Below are positions 12,364-34,700 of a DNA stretch of 36,287 nt, one piece after another. The translations under genes were made by a program, and so were the position numbers. This DNA comes from Spirochaetota bacterium (GTDB lineage Bacteria; Spirochaetota; JAGLSM01; JAKPMW01): NCBI GenBank assembly GCA_031283155.1, contig JAITCI010000014.1, positions 1-36,287 of the forward strand. Direction: 5' to 3'. The first letter of the stretch is position 1. Each line of letters begins with the position of its first letter. The notes under the pieces were generated by a model. It was not told the DNA's origin. It saw only the letters and a program-made list of their open reading frames with translations, and did no database searches.

Positions 12364-12392
12364 TTGTCTCCCGGGGCGCAAAACAATATATT
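12364..12392 (+). promoter_or_regulatory. Promoter of udk
   Basis: TTGTCT (12364-12369), a 17-bp spacer, then TATATT (12387-12392), 44 bp before the GTG start of udk. It is back-to-back with the deoB promoter; the two -35 boxes are about 32 bp apart. Confidence 0.6.
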
Positions 12393-12436
12393 TGAGCGCG
12401 GGCGCTCGCACATTGCAGGCCTCTAAGGAGGACAGC

Positions 12437-13081
12437 GTGATCGTCATCGGGATTGCCGGCGGCACAGCGTCCGGCAAAACAACGGTCGTGCGCAGCATCT
12501 ACGAAAGAATCCCCAGCGACCTTGTCGCCTGCATCCCCCAGGATGCCTACTATAAAGACATGAGCCATCTTCCGATGGAAGAGCGCCTTCTGGTCAATTA
12601 CGATCATCCCGATACGGTTGAATTTGATCTCTTCCTGCAGCATATCCTTGCGCTCCAAAGCGGGCAGGCCATTGAGGTGCCGATCTACGACTATGTTACC
12701 TGCACCCGCAGCCTGGGTACCCGAACCGTTATGCCGCAGAAAATCGTCATTGTCGAAGGCATCATGATCATGACCGACGCGCGCCTGCGCCAGCAAATGG
12801 ATATTAAGATATTCGTGGACGCCGATGCCGATGACCGGCTCATGCGCAGGATCAAAAGGGACGTGGGCGAACGCGGGCGCTCGGTGGAATCGGTGCTTGA
12901 GTGGTATGAAACGCGGGTCAAACCCATGCACAATCTTTTTATCGAACCCACCAAACGCTACGCCGATCTGATCATTCCGCAGGGCGGGAGCAACCATGTC
13001 GCGATTGACGTTCTGACATCGATGATCCTCGGCAAGCTCAAAACGGAATCGGCGAATACGGGCATCCTCGCGACGGCATAG
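12437..13081 (+). CDS. udk: Uridine kinase
   Basis: Phosphorylates uridine and cytidine to UMP and CMP. 214 residues from GTG 12437, chosen because AAGGAGGA ends 4 bp upstream and the protein then begins VIVIGIAGGTASGKTT with the P-loop (GGTASGKTT). Other family motifs: CIPQDAYYKDMSHL, NYDHPDTVEFDLF, PIYDYVTCTR and a lid-region RRIKRDVGERGRSVESVL. Length and order match Udk. It reads divergently from deoB-punA. Its stop codon is followed directly by repeat-rich DNA. Confidence 0.93.
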   Translation: MIVIGIAGGTASGKTTVVRSIYERIPSDLVACIPQDAYYKDMSHLPMEERLLVNYDHPDTVEFDLFLQHILALQSGQAIEVPIYDYVTCTRSLGTRTVMPQKIVIVEGIMIMTDARLRQQMDIKIFVDADADDRLMRRIKRDVGERGRSVESVLEWYETRVKPMHNLFIEPTKRYADLIIPQGGSNHVAIDVLTSMILGKLKTESANTGILATA

Positions 13082-13129
13082 GGATGCGCCCTAGCCCTCG
13101 CAAGAGCGTACATCCATGTACGCGCTCGG

Positions 13130-13210
13130 GACAGAACCTCCTGTTCTAGCCCTCGCCTACGACCTGCGCAGCACGCAAAGCGGGATGGGAGTGTCCCGCG
13201 TTGGGCAAGG
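13130..13210 (+). repeat. 81-bp direct repeat, copy 1
   Basis: Starts GACAGAACCTCCTGTTCTAG and ends ..GCGTTGGGCAAG. It is the same base for base as 13351-13431, at an offset of 221 bp. It contains the AGAAC-CTCCT-GTTCT hairpin and the CTAGCCCTCGCC boundary motif. Confidence 0.85.
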
Positions 13211-13274
13211 ATGCCCAAAAACGCGGGGAAGAGCGTACATTACCCTACGCACCCACAGGGCGTAGAGGCACAGG

Positions 13275-13372
13275 CCATGTACGCGCAACGCCCTACGGGC
13301 GTGACTGTAGGGAAAATTGTAGGCGTCGCTTACGCGACGGACAGTATCGTGACAGAACCTCCTGTTCTAGCC
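13275..13372 (+). repeat. Dispersed hairpin element (also at 30554-30675, opposite strand)
   Basis: Shares with the reverse complement of 30554-30675 a run of modules: GTACGCGCAACGCCC..GGGCGTGACTG, GGAAAATT.TAGGCGTCGCTT, GCGACG.ACAGTATCG, and a CAGAAC..CCTGT.CTAGCC end. Substitutions fall mostly in the hairpin loops. This 13-kb copy seems to carry an extra 34 bp or so inside its GTACAT/ATGTAC arm, at about 13241-13274. Confidence 0.75.
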
Positions 13373-13431
13373 CTCGCCTACGACCTGCGCAGCACGCAAA
13401 GCGGGATGGGAGTGTCCCGCGTTGGGCAAGG
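13351..13431 (+). repeat. 81-bp direct repeat, copy 2
   Basis: Exact copy of 13130-13210. Its start is the terminal hairpin of the dispersed element at 13275-13372, so the duplication includes that element's end. Confidence 0.85.
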
Positions 13432-13495
13432 CTTGTACCCTGTGGGTACAGGGGGTAAAGGCACAAGCGCAATCCATTTTGATGTGTGTACAGCC

Positions 13496-13531
13496 TGGAT
13501 TGCTTCGCCGCTCACGCGGCTCGCAATGACG
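13496..13531. repeat. REP-like palindrome (ATTGC...GCAAT type)
   Basis: Reads GGATTGCTTCGCCGC, loop TCAC, GCGGCTCGCAATGACG. The outer arms are ATTGC/GCAAT and the inner stem is GCCGC/GCGGC. The pattern is the 'cattgcgag...gcaatcc' short palindrome that I know as widespread in intergenic DNA of many unrelated bacteria. A run of seven A residues follows on this strand. Confidence 0.7.
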
Positions 13532-13555
13532 AAAAAAACACTTTGGGGACACGCC

Positions 13556-14788
13556 CTAGCCCTCGCCGTCAGGATAAAATTGCCGGATTGAATTGATGGT
13601 TTCATAAATCCGGAAAAAAGCCTCTGTGACCTCGGGGTCAAACTGCTTCCCCGCCTGCTCGCGGATATACTCAAGCACCTGTTTCTCGCCCCATTCCTCT
13701 TTATATGCGCGTTTGGAGATCAGGGCGTCGAATACGTCGGCCAGAGCAACTATCCGCCCAAAGATGGGTATATCCTCGCCCGCAAGCCCCGTGCCATAGC
13801 CGCTGTCTTCAGAGCCGTCTCCGGGCTTGTTCCCCGGATAGCCGCCGCCATCCCAGCGCTCGTGATGCGTACGCGCAACCTCGGCTGCCAGCATATCCCA
13901 GTCGGATACGGGATTATTGAAAAGGTGCGCGCCGTGCAGGGTGTGCGCTTTCATGGCGGTGTACTCTTCCTCGGTAAGCCTGGCGGGCTTTTTGAGTATC
14001 GTGTCGGAAATGGCCACCTTGCCCACGTCATGCAGCATGGCCGCGATGCTCAGCATATCCTTGTTCTTCAGAATCTCCTCGCGATTCATGCCGCGATGCT
14101 GCGCCCAGTTGTCGAATATCTCCACCGAATACGCGCTGACGCGGCGGACGTGATTTCCGGTTTCTTTCGGATCGCGGTACTCGGCCATGCGTATCATGCG
14201 CATAACAAGTTCGCGCATCATCTTTGCGCGCTCTATCGCAAGCGAGGCGTTATTCGCGAAAAAAATGATGTGCATTATATCGCTGCCCGAAAAGGCTTTT
14301 GTAACCCCAATCTTGCTGCGGGAATTCAGTATCTGCATCACGCCAATGGTGATCTGCTGACTGGTGATGAGCGGCACCGTCAGAAGGGATTTGGTGCGGT
14401 AGCCGGCCTTTTGATCAAAGCTGCGGTTAAAACTGTAGGGCAAATTTTCATCTATTTTGTAGACGTCGGGAATACAGACGGTTTTTCCGGTTAAAGCGAC
14501 GTAGCCGGAGATGGACTTTTCGTTGATCTCCAGCGCCTGTTTAACATAAATGTGTTTATTGGCGCTCGGATCGCGCGCGGCAAGCGTATCATTCTGCACA
14601 TAACTGAAGAGCAGAAAATTTCCCTCGCGCAGGTAGATGGAGCCGGCGTCGGAATTCGTGAAACGGCGCGCCTCGTAGAGTATCTTCTCAAGAAGGACGT
14701 CGATATCCTTGATGCGGTTCATATCTTCGGTAATCTTCAGAATGTCGGCAAGATTCTTCCGGCTGTTTGAAACAATCTCTGCGGTCAT
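13556..14788 (-). CDS. GAF-HD-GYP domain protein, probable c-di-GMP phosphodiesterase
   Basis: 410 residues, cytoplasmic, with no membrane segment. A GAF domain spans about residues 25-185 (EARRFTNSDAGSIYLREG.., ..RTKSLLTVPLITSQ..IGVMQILNS..). It is followed by an HD-GYP domain: GNHVRRVSAYS, MLHDVGKVAISD (H253-D254), KAHTLHGAHL, HHERWDGGGYPGN (the GYP motif) and ALADVFDALISKRAYK. All metal and GYP residues are present, so c-di-GMP hydrolysis is likely; the GAF ligand is unknown. Start ATG 14788 has a G-rich ribosome site. The stop codon TAG lies inside the repeat-mosaic motif CTAGCCCTCGCC. Confidence 0.9.
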   Translation of the reverse strand: MTAEIVSNSRKNLADILKITEDMNRIKDIDVLLEKILYEARRFTNSDAGSIYLREGNFLLFSYVQNDTLAARDPSANKHIYVKQALEINEKSISGYVALTGKTVCIPDVYKIDENLPYSFNRSFDQKAGYRTKSLLTVPLITSQQITIGVMQILNSRSKIGVTKAFSGSDIMHIIFFANNASLAIERAKMMRELVMRMIRMAEYRDPKETGNHVRRVSAYSVEIFDNWAQHRGMNREEILKNKDMLSIAAMLHDVGKVAISDTILKKPARLTEEEYTAMKAHTLHGAHLFNNPVSDWDMLAAEVARTHHERWDGGGYPGNKPGDGSEDSGYGTGLAGEDIPIFGRIVALADVFDALISKRAYKEEWGEKQVLEYIREQAGKQFDPEVTEAFFRIYETINSIRQFYPDGEG

Positions 14789-30553: not shown

Positions 30554-30675
30554 GGCTAGGACAGGATGTTCTGCACCGATACTGTTCGTCGCGCAAGCGA
30601 CGCCTATAATTTTCCTTGCAGTCACGCCCGAAGGGCGTTGCGCGTACAAGGATGTACGCTCTTGCGAGGGCTAGG
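30554..30675 (-). repeat. Dispersed hairpin element, second copy
   Basis: Inverted relative to the 13275-13372 copy. It contains the ACGCCC-GAAGGGCGT-type hairpin, the CGTCGC..GCGACG hairpin, the GTACAAGGATGTAC hairpin and the GAGGGCTAGG boundary. It fills the 129-bp convergent gap between cdd and the HD-GYP response regulator. The regulator's TAG stop lies in its final CTAG. The short reading frame across it is repeat-encoded and similar in peptide sequence to the one at 13 kb, not a gene. Confidence 0.75.
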
Positions 30676-31765
30676 CAACATCTTTCTTGAAACGGAAGCA
30701 ATCCGCCGACTCGAGGAATATATCCACCAGCGTCGGGTCAAACTGGGTTCCGCGGCGCTCGCGGATAATCTGCACCGCTTTCTGGTGCGGGTAGGCGGGC
30801 TTATATGGGCGCACAGAAACAAGCGCGTCATAAACGTCGGCGATTGCCATGATGCGCCCGAGAAGAGGTATCTCTTCGCCCTTCAAGCCATACGGATAGC
30901 CCGAACCGTCCCAGTACTCATGGTGGAATGAGACAAAGATTTTCGCATATTCAAGAAAATCGCTCACGTTAGTCATGGACTGCGCTTTTTCAATCATCTG
31001 CTTTCCCAGAATGGTATGCTTTTTCATTTCGTCAAATTCGTCAGTCGTGAGTTTCCCGGGTTTCTTGAGTATCGCGTCGCTGACGCCTACCTTTCCGAGA
31101 TCATGGAGCTGGCATGACTGCAGCACAAGTTCCTTGTTCCAGTCCCTGGTCTCATTTGGCCAAAGACCCCTTTTTATAATCTCGTCGAGCAAAACGCCTA
31201 CTCCAAGCTGCGTACGCTCTATATGCTGACCTGTTGTATCATCACGCGCTTCAACCACTTCCGCCAGTGAGGTTAAAAAAATATTCTGAAGCGTCATAAT
31301 GTCTTTTGTTTTTTCTTCAACCATACTCTGGAGATTTTCATTGAAATTCCGCAATTCGCTTGCCTGCGCCTCCAATGAAAGCCGCTGTGCCTGAATCAGG
31401 AGGTGTATCTCAATGCGTTTCAAAAGCAGAACAGGCTGAAAGGGCTTTGTTATATAATCCACCGCGCCAAGCGAAAGCCCCATGAGTTCGTCTTCCGATT
31501 CGGTCTTTGCCGTCAGAAACATAACCGGGATATTTTGCGTACTCTGTTTTGATTTCAGTATGCGAATCGTTTCGTAGCCATCCATTTCCGGCATATCCAC
31601 ATCCAGAAGAATCATATCCGGAGTCATAACTTCCAGGAGCTTAAAGAGCTTTTCCGCCGAGGGAGCAGTGGCGGTATTGTATTTTTCAGAGATAACATTC
31701 TTGCCAATACGAAGGTTTGTTGGATTATCGTCCACAAGCATGATCAAGGGTTTTTCGTCTCTCAT
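30671..31765 (-). CDS. Response regulator with HD-GYP output (probable c-di-GMP phosphodiesterase)
   Basis: 364 residues from ATG 31763-31765 (MRDEKPLIMLVDDNPTNLRI), with AAAGGG upstream; a coupled start at 31780, overlapping the kinase stop (ATGA), is also possible. Receiver: D12-D13, phospho-acceptor D55 in MILLDVDMPEMDG, and K107 (ITKPFQP). A coiled linker (about 125-165) leads to the HD-GYP domain: GQHIERTQLGVGVL, QLHDLGKVGVSD (H221-D222), KKHTILGKQM, HHEYWDGSGYPYGLKGEEIP, MAIADVYDALVSVRPYK. All catalytic residues are present. It is encoded directly after a hybrid kinase with an HPt, its likely phospho-donor. Confidence 0.93.
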   Translation of the reverse strand: MRDEKPLIMLVDDNPTNLRIGKNVISEKYNTATAPSAEKLFKLLEVMTPDMILLDVDMPEMDGYETIRILKSKQSTQNIPVMFLTAKTESEDELMGLSLGAVDYITKPFQPVLLLKRIEIHLLIQAQRLSLEAQASELRNFNENLQSMVEEKTKDIMTLQNIFLTSLAEVVEARDDTTGQHIERTQLGVGVLLDEIIKRGLWPNETRDWNKELVLQSCQLHDLGKVGVSDAILKKPGKLTTDEFDEMKKHTILGKQMIEKAQSMTNVSDFLEYAKIFVSFHHEYWDGSGYPYGLKGEEIPLLGRIMAIADVYDALVSVRPYKPAYPHQKAVQIIRERRGTQFDPTLVDIFLESADCFRFKKDVA

Positions 31766-31776
31766 AAGCATCCCTT

Positions 31777-34700
31777 TCATTTGACAGAATGAAATAACGC
31801 TTCAATCGTATTCACTGCTTCGTCATAATCCGCCATCAGAATCTGGTCGGAAACGGTTTGCACAGCCCGTTCTGTTCCGGCTTCCAGCGTTCTTCTGGTA
31901 AGCGCATCCATTATACCATCAATATTAGCAATGTTTCGCGTTTTAAGCGACTCCAGTAATTTTCTGAAAATCGGGAATAATGTCTCAGAATTAAAAGGTT
32001 CGGATTCTTTATTCTCGGGATGCACAAAACCAAGTTTTTCGAGTAAAAACATCCAGTCCAGAATTTCATAAACCAGAGCGTCCAGACGCTCAATAAAACC
32101 CGGTATATCTTCCCGGATGTACGCCAGATTGCCTTCTCCCCCCTTTGCCTCGAGAATTGCGGCCTCTTTTGAAAAATCCGCCGCCCCCAGACTTGAAGAC
32201 GCGCTCTTGAGGGAATGAAACTGCGTGACAAAATCAGGCAGGGATTCGGGATCAAGGGGATTCGCGCGAAAAAAATCAATCCTTGCCGCCGCGTCTTTGC
32301 AAAACACGTCAAGAACCTTCTTATAACCCGTAAAGGTTCCGCCTGTCATTATAATACCCCGCTCCACATCCACCCCTTTAAGCGAAGGATACACAGGGGC
32401 TTTTACTTCCACGCGCGGAGAATCCGTCTGCAGCGTTCTTTTTATCCGCTTTTCCTCCGGAATCCATTGTATAAGAACTTCATCCAGCCTGGCAATATCC
32501 ATTGGCTTGGCGAGAAAATCATTAAAGCGGGAGGCAATATACATTTCACGCGTTCCGGAAACCGCATTTGCCGTTAGTGCGATAACAGGCAGCGAAACAT
32601 GGCGCCCGCCGAGATCGCGTATCGCATGTACTGCCTCTATGCCGTCCATGCCGGGCATCATATGATCCATAAATACGACGTCGTAATCATGGTTTTTTAC
32701 AAGCTCGATGGAATCCAGACCGGACAGGCAGGTATCCACCCTGGCCTCGTAGGGCGTCAAAAGACCTTCGGTTACTTTAAGATTGGTAAGCATATCGTCA
32801 ACCACAAGAATCCGCGCCTCAGGGAAAACATACCGGACAAAATTATCTGTTCTCGTGCTTCCGAGCAATTCGGTATAGGTTGCCTGTCCATTCAATATAT
32901 TCGCCAGGGAAAGAGTGTACACCGGCAAGGACAGAAAAGAAACGCCGGGTATGGGGTTTTCGGAACCCAGCGCGACAGTAAGTATCAGACCCGGCTTTTC
33001 ATCACCGGAAGACACCGAGACCGTCTCTTTCAGGATTTCGCGGATCCGTTTGTAGATTTTATAAATACCGTAATCGGTTAAAATAAAGTTCCATTTTCCG
33101 GCAGTAATGGCTTCGTAAAAATCTTCGACGGACGCCACCATTTTACAGGGTACTTTGAGGTTATCCAGCGACCAGCAGAGCGACTGAGCATACGCCTTGC
33201 GGTGCTCAAAAACCAGCACATTCTTTTTTTCGGGGGATTCCACACAGGCAAACGGCAGATCGGAATCAATCTCCTGGATAATGCTCGCTTCAAAGATACT
33301 GCCCTTGCCATACTCGCTTTTCAGCCTGATACCGCCGCCCATAGCTATGCAGAGAGATCGGGTGATCGCGAGTCCAAGACCTGTCCCCTCGATGCCGGAA
33401 TTTTTTTTCATGTCCACCTGGATAAAATCCCCGAAGAGCTTTTCCTGATCCTCGGGCGTTATACCCCTTCCGGTATCGGCAACCTCTATCCGCAGAAGAA
33501 CCTGCCTGGAACCATGTCTTTCCGCCGTAAGCGTGAGAGTGATTTGCCCGCGGTCGGTATACTTGACGGCATTCGAGAGTATGTTCAGAAGTATTTGCCT
33601 CAATCGTATCTCGTCGCCAATGAGGCTTGATGGAATATTGCTGTCGATATTTGTTATAAAACGAATGGGTTTCTCCGAAAGCCGCATACGGATAATATTG
33701 ATTGTATCCTGTATGAGCGAAGCCAGGGCATATTTTGCGGGCGTTATCTGGATCTGACCGGCCTCAATCTTGGAAAAATCCAGGATATCGTTAATAATGG
33801 AAATAAGATTTGCCGACGCCTGCTTGATATCCTGCGCGTATTCATGCGGCTTGGCGGGAAGGGTCTCCCTGAGAAGGAGTTCCGCCATACCGGTGATCGC
33901 GTTCATGGGAGTGCGGATCTCATGGCTCATTTTGGCAAGAAAATTTGATTTGTATTTATTTTCTTCCTCGGAACGAAGCCGCGCCATGGAGAGCCGCAGC
34001 AGAACATAACAGAGCGAAGCGGCCAGGCTCCCGCCCAAAAGCATCAGAATGAGCGCGGAGGTATACCGGTCGCCGTAAAATTTTGTTTTGGGGATAATGC
34101 TTCCGACATACCATCCGTTAAAAATTTTCTTGAAAAAAACAAGGGCGGTGGTTCCGTCCCTGTCTTCGATCTCGCGGTCAAACACTATTTCGCCGCTTCT
34201 GAGATCGTGCGCCAATTTCGTAAAATCCCCGCCCAGGTTCTGAAACTGATTGCCCAGAACATCGCTGTCAGGGTGCGCCATGATGGCCATATCCTGGCTG
34301 AGTAAAATTCCATACCCGTCAAAAAGACGCGTAAGCCCGGCCACTGCCTGCCCAATCATTTTGCTGTCGACGTCAACCGCGAGGATACCGATTATATCCT
34401 CTTTATAAATGACGTTTTGTACGATGGATATAATCGTATTTTCGGTACGCGCGTCATGATAGGGTGCCGTATACGCAATGGACGTACCGCTGCGCACCGC
34501 AGTTTGGTACCAGGGCTGTCTTTGGGGAACAAAATCATCACCGGGATACAAATCAATACTGTCGTAAAAATGGCCGTTGATATATCCATAAATACCGTGA
34601 ATATCGATCATCCCCTGCTCGCGCTGTGTCAGCCAGGCGGTAGTTGTACGCAGATAGTTCAGGATCTCGTACCGGGATGCGCCGTGGTCCAGCATACCTG

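Follow-up and report, generated by a model that had tools for sequence, protein, structure and literature searches.

A repeat mosaic in a Spirochaetota genome built around a dispersed GGA-loop double hairpin that resembles CsrA-binding RNAs

We analysed a stretch of 36,287 nucleotides from a Spirochaetota bacterium (the window), and in it a 474-bp intergenic stretch (13082-13555) that lies between convergent genes and had been described, from the letters alone, as a mosaic of hairpin repeats. The flanking genes and the largest repeat are as follows.

12392-13081, plus strand: uridine kinase gene, left flank of the mosaic
13556-14788, minus strand: GAF/HD-domain gene, right flank of the mosaic
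13130-13210: first copy of an exact 81-bp duplication, from sequence comparison
13351-13431: second copy of the duplication, offset 221

The earlier note had claimed this exact duplication with its offset of 221, and the two blocks are indeed identical; around them, 85 nt align with one mismatch (13126-13210 against 13347-13431). The several hairpins that it had described are borne out by RNA folding, in which each strand of the stretch fell below all 100 shuffles (z -5.4 and -5.1). The boundary word also recurs: CTAGCCCTCGC stands at 13091, 13146, 13367 and 13556, and this 11-mer occurs 20 times genome-wide compared to 6 times for its reversed control. The minus-strand GAF/HD gene ends within the copy at 13556-13566, where the module end GCGAGGGCTAG provides its final codons and its TAG stop. 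When the 474-bp stretch was compared by blastn with the host genome (2.50 Mb in 89 contigs, 94% complete), 72 matches were found, so the copies are not confined to this window and the repeat mosaic is real and dispersed.

Comparison of copies resolved the mosaic into four modules, F, X, m and R. The F unit is a double hairpin of ~59 bp, of which the sequence examined holds 28 full-length copies, and the X element (60 bp) has two hairpins of its own. The m insert (~17-34 bp) sits in the loops of other hairpins, for example at GG^A; it measures 17-18 bp in simple copies and 34 nt in F unit 2 of the window. The R element is a MITE of 118-343 bp with inverted ends GGGCGTGTCCCTAAAGT. In the window these modules are arranged as follows.

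13091-13149, minus strand: F unit 1, reading CTAG - HP2 - spacer GTCCCGAGC - HP1 - tail TCTTGCGAGGG - CTAG
13106-13123, minus strand: HP1 of F unit 1, GCGTACA[TGGA]TGTACGC, which folds so
13133-13147, minus strand: HP2 of F unit 1, AGAAC[AGGAG]GTTCT, which folds so
13180-13227, plus strand: GGA unit in the opposite orientation, a hairpin (13180-13199) plus an outer stem round an inner hairpin
13195-13200 and 13222-13227, plus strand: outer stem of that unit, CCCGCG/CGCGGG, read from sequence
13201-13218, plus strand: inner hairpin of that unit, TTGGGCA[AGGA]TGCCCAA
13233-13368, minus strand: F unit 2, broken by m and X, from sequence
13233-13284, minus strand: HP1 of F unit 2, with an m-type insert (13241-13274) splitting its loop
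13287-13346, plus strand: X element in F unit 2, directly before TCG
13354-13368, minus strand: HP2 of F unit 2, AGAAC[AGGAG]GTTCT
13432-13448, minus strand: m insert, CTTGTACCCTGTGGGTA on the plus strand, in the duplicated hairpin at its GG^A site
13469-13556: right-hand part of an R element, left end missing, GCAATCC...CTCGCAATGAC...ACACTTTGGGGACACGCCC
30554-30675, plus strand: second copy of F+X, whose end coincides with the stop codon of the minus-strand gene 30671-31780

The HP1 loop of F unit 2 is split at a position identical to that in loci L006, L007, L019 and others, and the intact counterpart of the hairpin split by m, GGGCAAGGATGCCC, is found at 13203-13216. The stretch is best explained as a mosaic of dispersed repeats with the F unit as its core.

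Read along one strand, the F hairpins have the form stem-CA(N)GGA(N)G-stem'. The pattern STEM-AC(N)TCC(N)TGT-STEM', its outer stem set at a minimum of 3 pairs, was found 42 times in a 309-kb sample (up to 20 kb from the start of each of 20 contigs) and 0 times in the reversed control, which extrapolates to some 340 such hairpins per genome. The sequence examined contains 101 GGA-loop hairpins with a stem of at least 6, and 75 of these carry an A 1-2 bases before GGA. These 75 hairpins are built on 40 different 6-bp stems, with pairs 4-6 from the loop using all four Watson-Crick types. On these stems, which differ between copies and yet remain paired, the loops are fixed: among 24 ungapped F copies, the letters of GGA are kept in 70/72 cases in HP2 (positions 9-11) and 71/72 in HP1 (positions 35-37), and the most variable of the 59 columns are position 34, before GGA in HP1, and position 12, after GGA in HP2. 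The two GGA motifs are spaced by 25-27 nt in 34 of the 49 hairpin pairs, and other F families differ in their stems and share the plan, in which HP2 is followed by HP1 on an outer stem bulged on the 3' side. When this plan was searched for without regard to the loop, 20 cases were found, compared to 3-6 in each of five shuffles. Both loops were GGA in 6 of these, CGA then GGA in 3, CGA in both in 2, TCC in both in 2 (the mirror image of GGA units) and other in 7. CGA thus occupies HP2 in 5/20 of these architectures, including the 2 with CGA in both loops, and it is common in some families.

The bare motif ACANGGATGT occurs 155 times in the host genome compared to 6 times when reversed, with 17 of 26 sites in hairpins (sample). 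In a genome of the same genus (a sister species, G001; assembly 81% complete) it occurs 44 times compared to 2 times reversed, with only 2/29 sites seen in hairpins with at least 3 outer pairs, and in G008, G012 and G013 no site lay in such a hairpin (0/22); in these genomes the bare motif is therefore not evidence of arrays. When loop trinucleotides were ranked, GGA came first in the host genome and, at stem 6, in the sister species, and not in G002, G003 or G009; AGG is a poor control for this ranking because AGGA loops count for both. A pattern scan of genome contigs returned one match, to an unrelated-looking contig titled Paludibaculum, and the matches listed in a literature text search with CATTGCGAG look unrelated. 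The stems of X and R vary too, though without GGA loops, so that stem change alone would not prove an RNA role, and part of the stem variation may come from how the host genome rewrites palindromes.

F units are enriched at gene ends, with few copies in divergent gaps and many in convergent ones, and together with the stable folds on both strands this would suit a mosaic of ordinary 3' hairpins between convergent genes, serving as a bidirectional terminator or mRNA stabiliser with any loop. However, the F hairpins have no T-run behind them, F units also lie within operons (see the flgL-fliW gap below), and the fixed GGA loops on varying stems would be left unexplained; we consider this reading unlikely. 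The loops themselves could also be taken as AGGAGG-like decoys for the anti-Shine-Dalgarno sequence of the ribosome, and the main-family HP2 does read ACAGGAGGTT. The base after GGA can, however, be any of the four (G, T, A or C); this spoils the Shine-Dalgarno match and leaves the CsrA motif intact, and we regard such decoys as very improbable.

The CsrA motif offers a closer parallel. SELEX with E. coli CsrA gave the consensus RUACARGGAUGU, its GGA lying in a hairpin loop, and CsrA can span two sites separated by 10-63 nt (PMC7652899). The F loops, CA(N)GGA(N)G, are close to this published consensus, and the main-family HP1 reads GCGTACAAGGATGTACGC in many copies. The CGA loops should not be accepted by CsrA, because GGA is 100% conserved in CsrA sites. 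The host genome has both csrA and fliW, in a flgN-flgK-flgL-fliW-csrA operon. Residues L4 and R44 matter for CsrA function. Both residues of E. coli CsrA are, by eye, also found in the host CsrA; R44A is named in PMC7652899, and the operon order is reported for Leptospira and other spirochaetes (PMC8668096). An F-type unit lies in the flgL-fliW gap of this operon (L079 11003-11102, contig C18), on the strand of fliW-csrA and upstream of csrA, and its first TAG is the flgL stop. In the sister species the F-type unit is absent from the flgL-fliW gap (L109), which is too diverged for a clean empty-site call. F units are nevertheless present in that genome, with other stems and with GGA kept. In its contig C271 (L233 954-1108) a stop codon is immediately followed by six consecutive GGA-loop hairpins, all on a single strand, and another GGA hairpin array is found directly after a tRNA-Thr gene. 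The six-hairpin array is the most sponge-like that we have seen.

We also compared the repeats with known RNA families in Rfam. The 474-bp stretch itself gave nothing relevant, its own unit being without a match up to E 5, and four sample loci likewise gave nothing relevant, with one AsdA match (E 0.007). Among L233, L235, L073 and L001, RsmW matched the GGA strand of the six-hairpin array (E 0.0074), and it did so again when 20 short loci of the sister species were searched. TwoAYGGAY matched the GGA strand of L067 in a set of 14 loci, and this locus searched alone (301 bases) scored 39.6 bits with E 4e-5; in a set of 20 loci, TwoAYGGAY was found at L019 and Bacillaceae-1 at L021, next to unrelated sub-threshold matches such as sR47. 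Finally, 20 short F segments of the host genome (3.7 kb, 4227 families) gave nine sub-threshold matches, six of which belong to CsrA-binding or candidate families: TwoAYGGAY (2), PrrB_RsmZ (1) and Bacillaceae-1 (3, on the TCC strand). No F-array match reaches the gathering score. For TwoAYGGAY this is 43, and the scores are 39.6 (L067, the best), 33.4 (L265) and 29.6 (L271). As all matches are sub-threshold and other families give chance matches at similar E-values, single matches count little. What carries weight is that these matches fall on F arrays, with the CsrA-clan families TwoAYGGAY, RsmW and PrrB_RsmZ on the GGA strand and Bacillaceae-1 on the opposite one.

Like F, TwoAYGGAY (RF01731, clan CL00106) consists of two adjacent hairpins of which the second sits on an outer stem, and it gives partial and full-length matches on F arrays. 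Its published stem with tandem G-A pairs is seen in 19/28 F copies in an alignment read by eye. The A-Y-GGA-Y loops of the family are approached by the F loops, A(N)GGA(N), in which GGA is fixed and the flanks are not only pyrimidines. In contrast, the scores lie below the gathering cut-off, and the F copies are many, dispersed and nested. For Bacillaceae-1 (RF01690), the matches in three F segments lie on the TCC strand, again sub-threshold, so that its reverse complement, the predicted CsrA strand, corresponds to the GGA strand. The CsrA-binding predictions for these two families reportedly come from Gardner and co-workers. Both TwoAYGGAY and the reverse complement of Bacillaceae-1 are given as predicted, unvalidated CsrA-binding RNAs in a motif study, which describes Bacillaceae-1 from Bacillales and Lactobacillales (PMC4333381); TwoAYGGAY is listed for the human gut, gamma-Proteobacteria and Clostridiales (PMC2864571). 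The CsrB/CsrC and RsmX/Y/Z/W sponges are like F in having several GGA-loop hairpins per strand, and the RsmW and PrrB_RsmZ matches fit this; F, however, occurs as scattered two-hairpin units and not as one dedicated gene, and its GGA strand shows no significant tie to transcription.

We therefore favour, at a probability of roughly one half, a reading in which F units are TwoAYGGAY-like RNAs that bind CsrA, dispersed through the genome and invaded by further mobile repeats. As RNA of the GGA strand, F would be a short structured molecule in which HP2, with an AGGA(N) loop, precedes HP1, whose loop is A(N)GGA(N) and which rests on an outer stem bulged on its 3' side; most often 25-27 nt separate the two GGA motifs. 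Once transcribed, in a read-through 3' UTR or as a free RNA, each unit would offer two sites for one CsrA dimer, and the scattered copies could jointly titrate CsrA or bring the transcripts that carry them under CsrA. Some F copies have been invaded by X (at sites before TCG), by m (in hairpin loops) and by R (as a TA-flanked MITE). For CsrA binding by the F units we would give even odds, and the data suggest, without proving, a scattered RNA sponge for CsrA.

A different reading is that F is a DNA-level, non-autonomous mobile palindrome of the REP/PATE kind, the single-stranded DNA hairpins of which are recognised by a loop-reading transposase, and that the likeness to CsrA sites is fortuitous. 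F is dispersed on both strands, and between co-directional genes the GGA strand agrees with transcription in 22 clusters and opposes it in 16, which is no significant bias; the copies thus look inserted without much regard to transcription. Other strand comparisons add little: a wobble-pair test had too few imperfect pairs (2 G-T and 2 A-C, read by eye), and the GGA strand of 15 units folded lower by 0.7 kcal/mol on average, a weak difference with one 5-kcal exception in the opposite direction. The scarcity of F in divergent gaps and its abundance in convergent ones also suit a DNA palindrome, as do the CGA loops and the neighbouring X element, whose constant flank and lack of a target duplication are as in IS200/IS605-type elements. 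Furthermore, CTAG is present at F ends, and the opposite end (in GGA orientation) adjoins CTAG or CTAA in 17/39 copies (9/30 without tandem copies), as if YTAG were the target, although this fits only part of the copies. Several of the adjoining CTAG/CTAA are stop codons on one strand, and F ends form the stops at 30671 and at the end of flgL; stop codons (TAG/CTAG) look like favoured sites for F.

Against the DNA-level reading, the host genome has no match to Y1_Tnp, RVT_1 reverse transcriptase or the DDE_3 (PF13358) transposase. A single enzyme would also have to take some 40 stems and yet insist on GGA, the sister species has retained GGA, and F matches RNA families of the CsrA clan. We consider this reading quite possible, though less likely than the CsrA reading. 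The earlier note had compared the modules with BIME/REP clusters, which can be moved by REP-associated tyrosine transposases (RAYT). Part of that comparison stands, since the modules are extragenic, palindromic, dispersed and multi-copy, and F is, like REP/BIME and REPIN elements, short and clustered. F differs from these in its many stem families with a fixed loop motif, a build that the note had not anticipated and that is typical of CsrA-binding RNA families. The RAYT-driven movement found no support: in profile searches, Y1_Tnp (PF01797) was found neither in the host genome (94% complete) nor in the sister-species genome (81% complete), the incomplete assemblies leaving its absence unproven, and the identical search was positive in 7/21 genomes and 5/14 controls. 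A more distant relative, G009, has 15 Y1_Tnp matches together with R-like palindromes, a possible source of mobility elsewhere in the phylum.

The other three modules behave as inserts. The right flank of X is TC in all 30 distinct copies (TCGG 17, TCGC 6, TCGT 6, TCTG 1), and X lies without target duplication in unrelated hosts, namely F, R and other X copies. With its two hairpins, fixed flank and lack of a target duplication it resembles the IS200/IS605-derived PATE elements, although there is no Y1_Tnp in its host genome. Of 11 paired copies of R, 6 are flanked by TA on both sides and the remaining 5 on one. With these flanks and its terminal inverted repeats it resembles the TA-flanked MITEs of IS630/Tc1 type, although the host genome has no DDE_3 match. 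The cyanobacterial SDR repeats, mentioned in PMC3116915, are a possible parallel for m. Nesting can be deep, as in L164 (1497-1839) and L173 of the host genome, where R elements have X and m nested in each other. In the inner hairpin of R, between ATTGCGA and GAAGCAATCC, both stem and loop vary by copy (for example L165 and L161), whereas the F loop is fixed.

An extended version of the CsrA reading would have RNA and protein antagonists of CsrA at work side by side in one organism. Specifically, F may be a mobile repeat with a CsrA-binding double hairpin as its body, its some hundreds of GGA hairpins forming a distributed CsrA sponge beside FliW, and its spread would rewire the CsrA regulon, one unit being already in place between flgL and fliW; we put this extended version forward tentatively and think it less likely than not. 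CsrA-sponging RNAs are established in Gammaproteobacteria, with TwoAYGGAY and Bacillaceae-1 the first predicted, and unvalidated, outside them (PMC4333381), and according to a review it "remains to be determined" if any species uses FliW and sRNAs jointly to control CsrA (PMC7652899). With fliW, csrA and a very large number of CsrA-type hairpins in one genome, this question becomes directly testable. The findings also suggest that dispersed repeats can have a second role as decoys for a regulator; in the parts of the PMC literature covered (PMC4333381, PMC2864571 and PMC11701678 included) no paper was found that links CsrA to REP-like or transposable repeats.

Elsewhere in the window, two 71-nt copies of CCCCTGTTTGCGTACTATACAAACAAAGG... 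(258-328 and 1878-1948) are 92% identical and lie 1620 bp apart, and an array of 12-bp TCTATACCTTTT-like units occupies 1070-1141.
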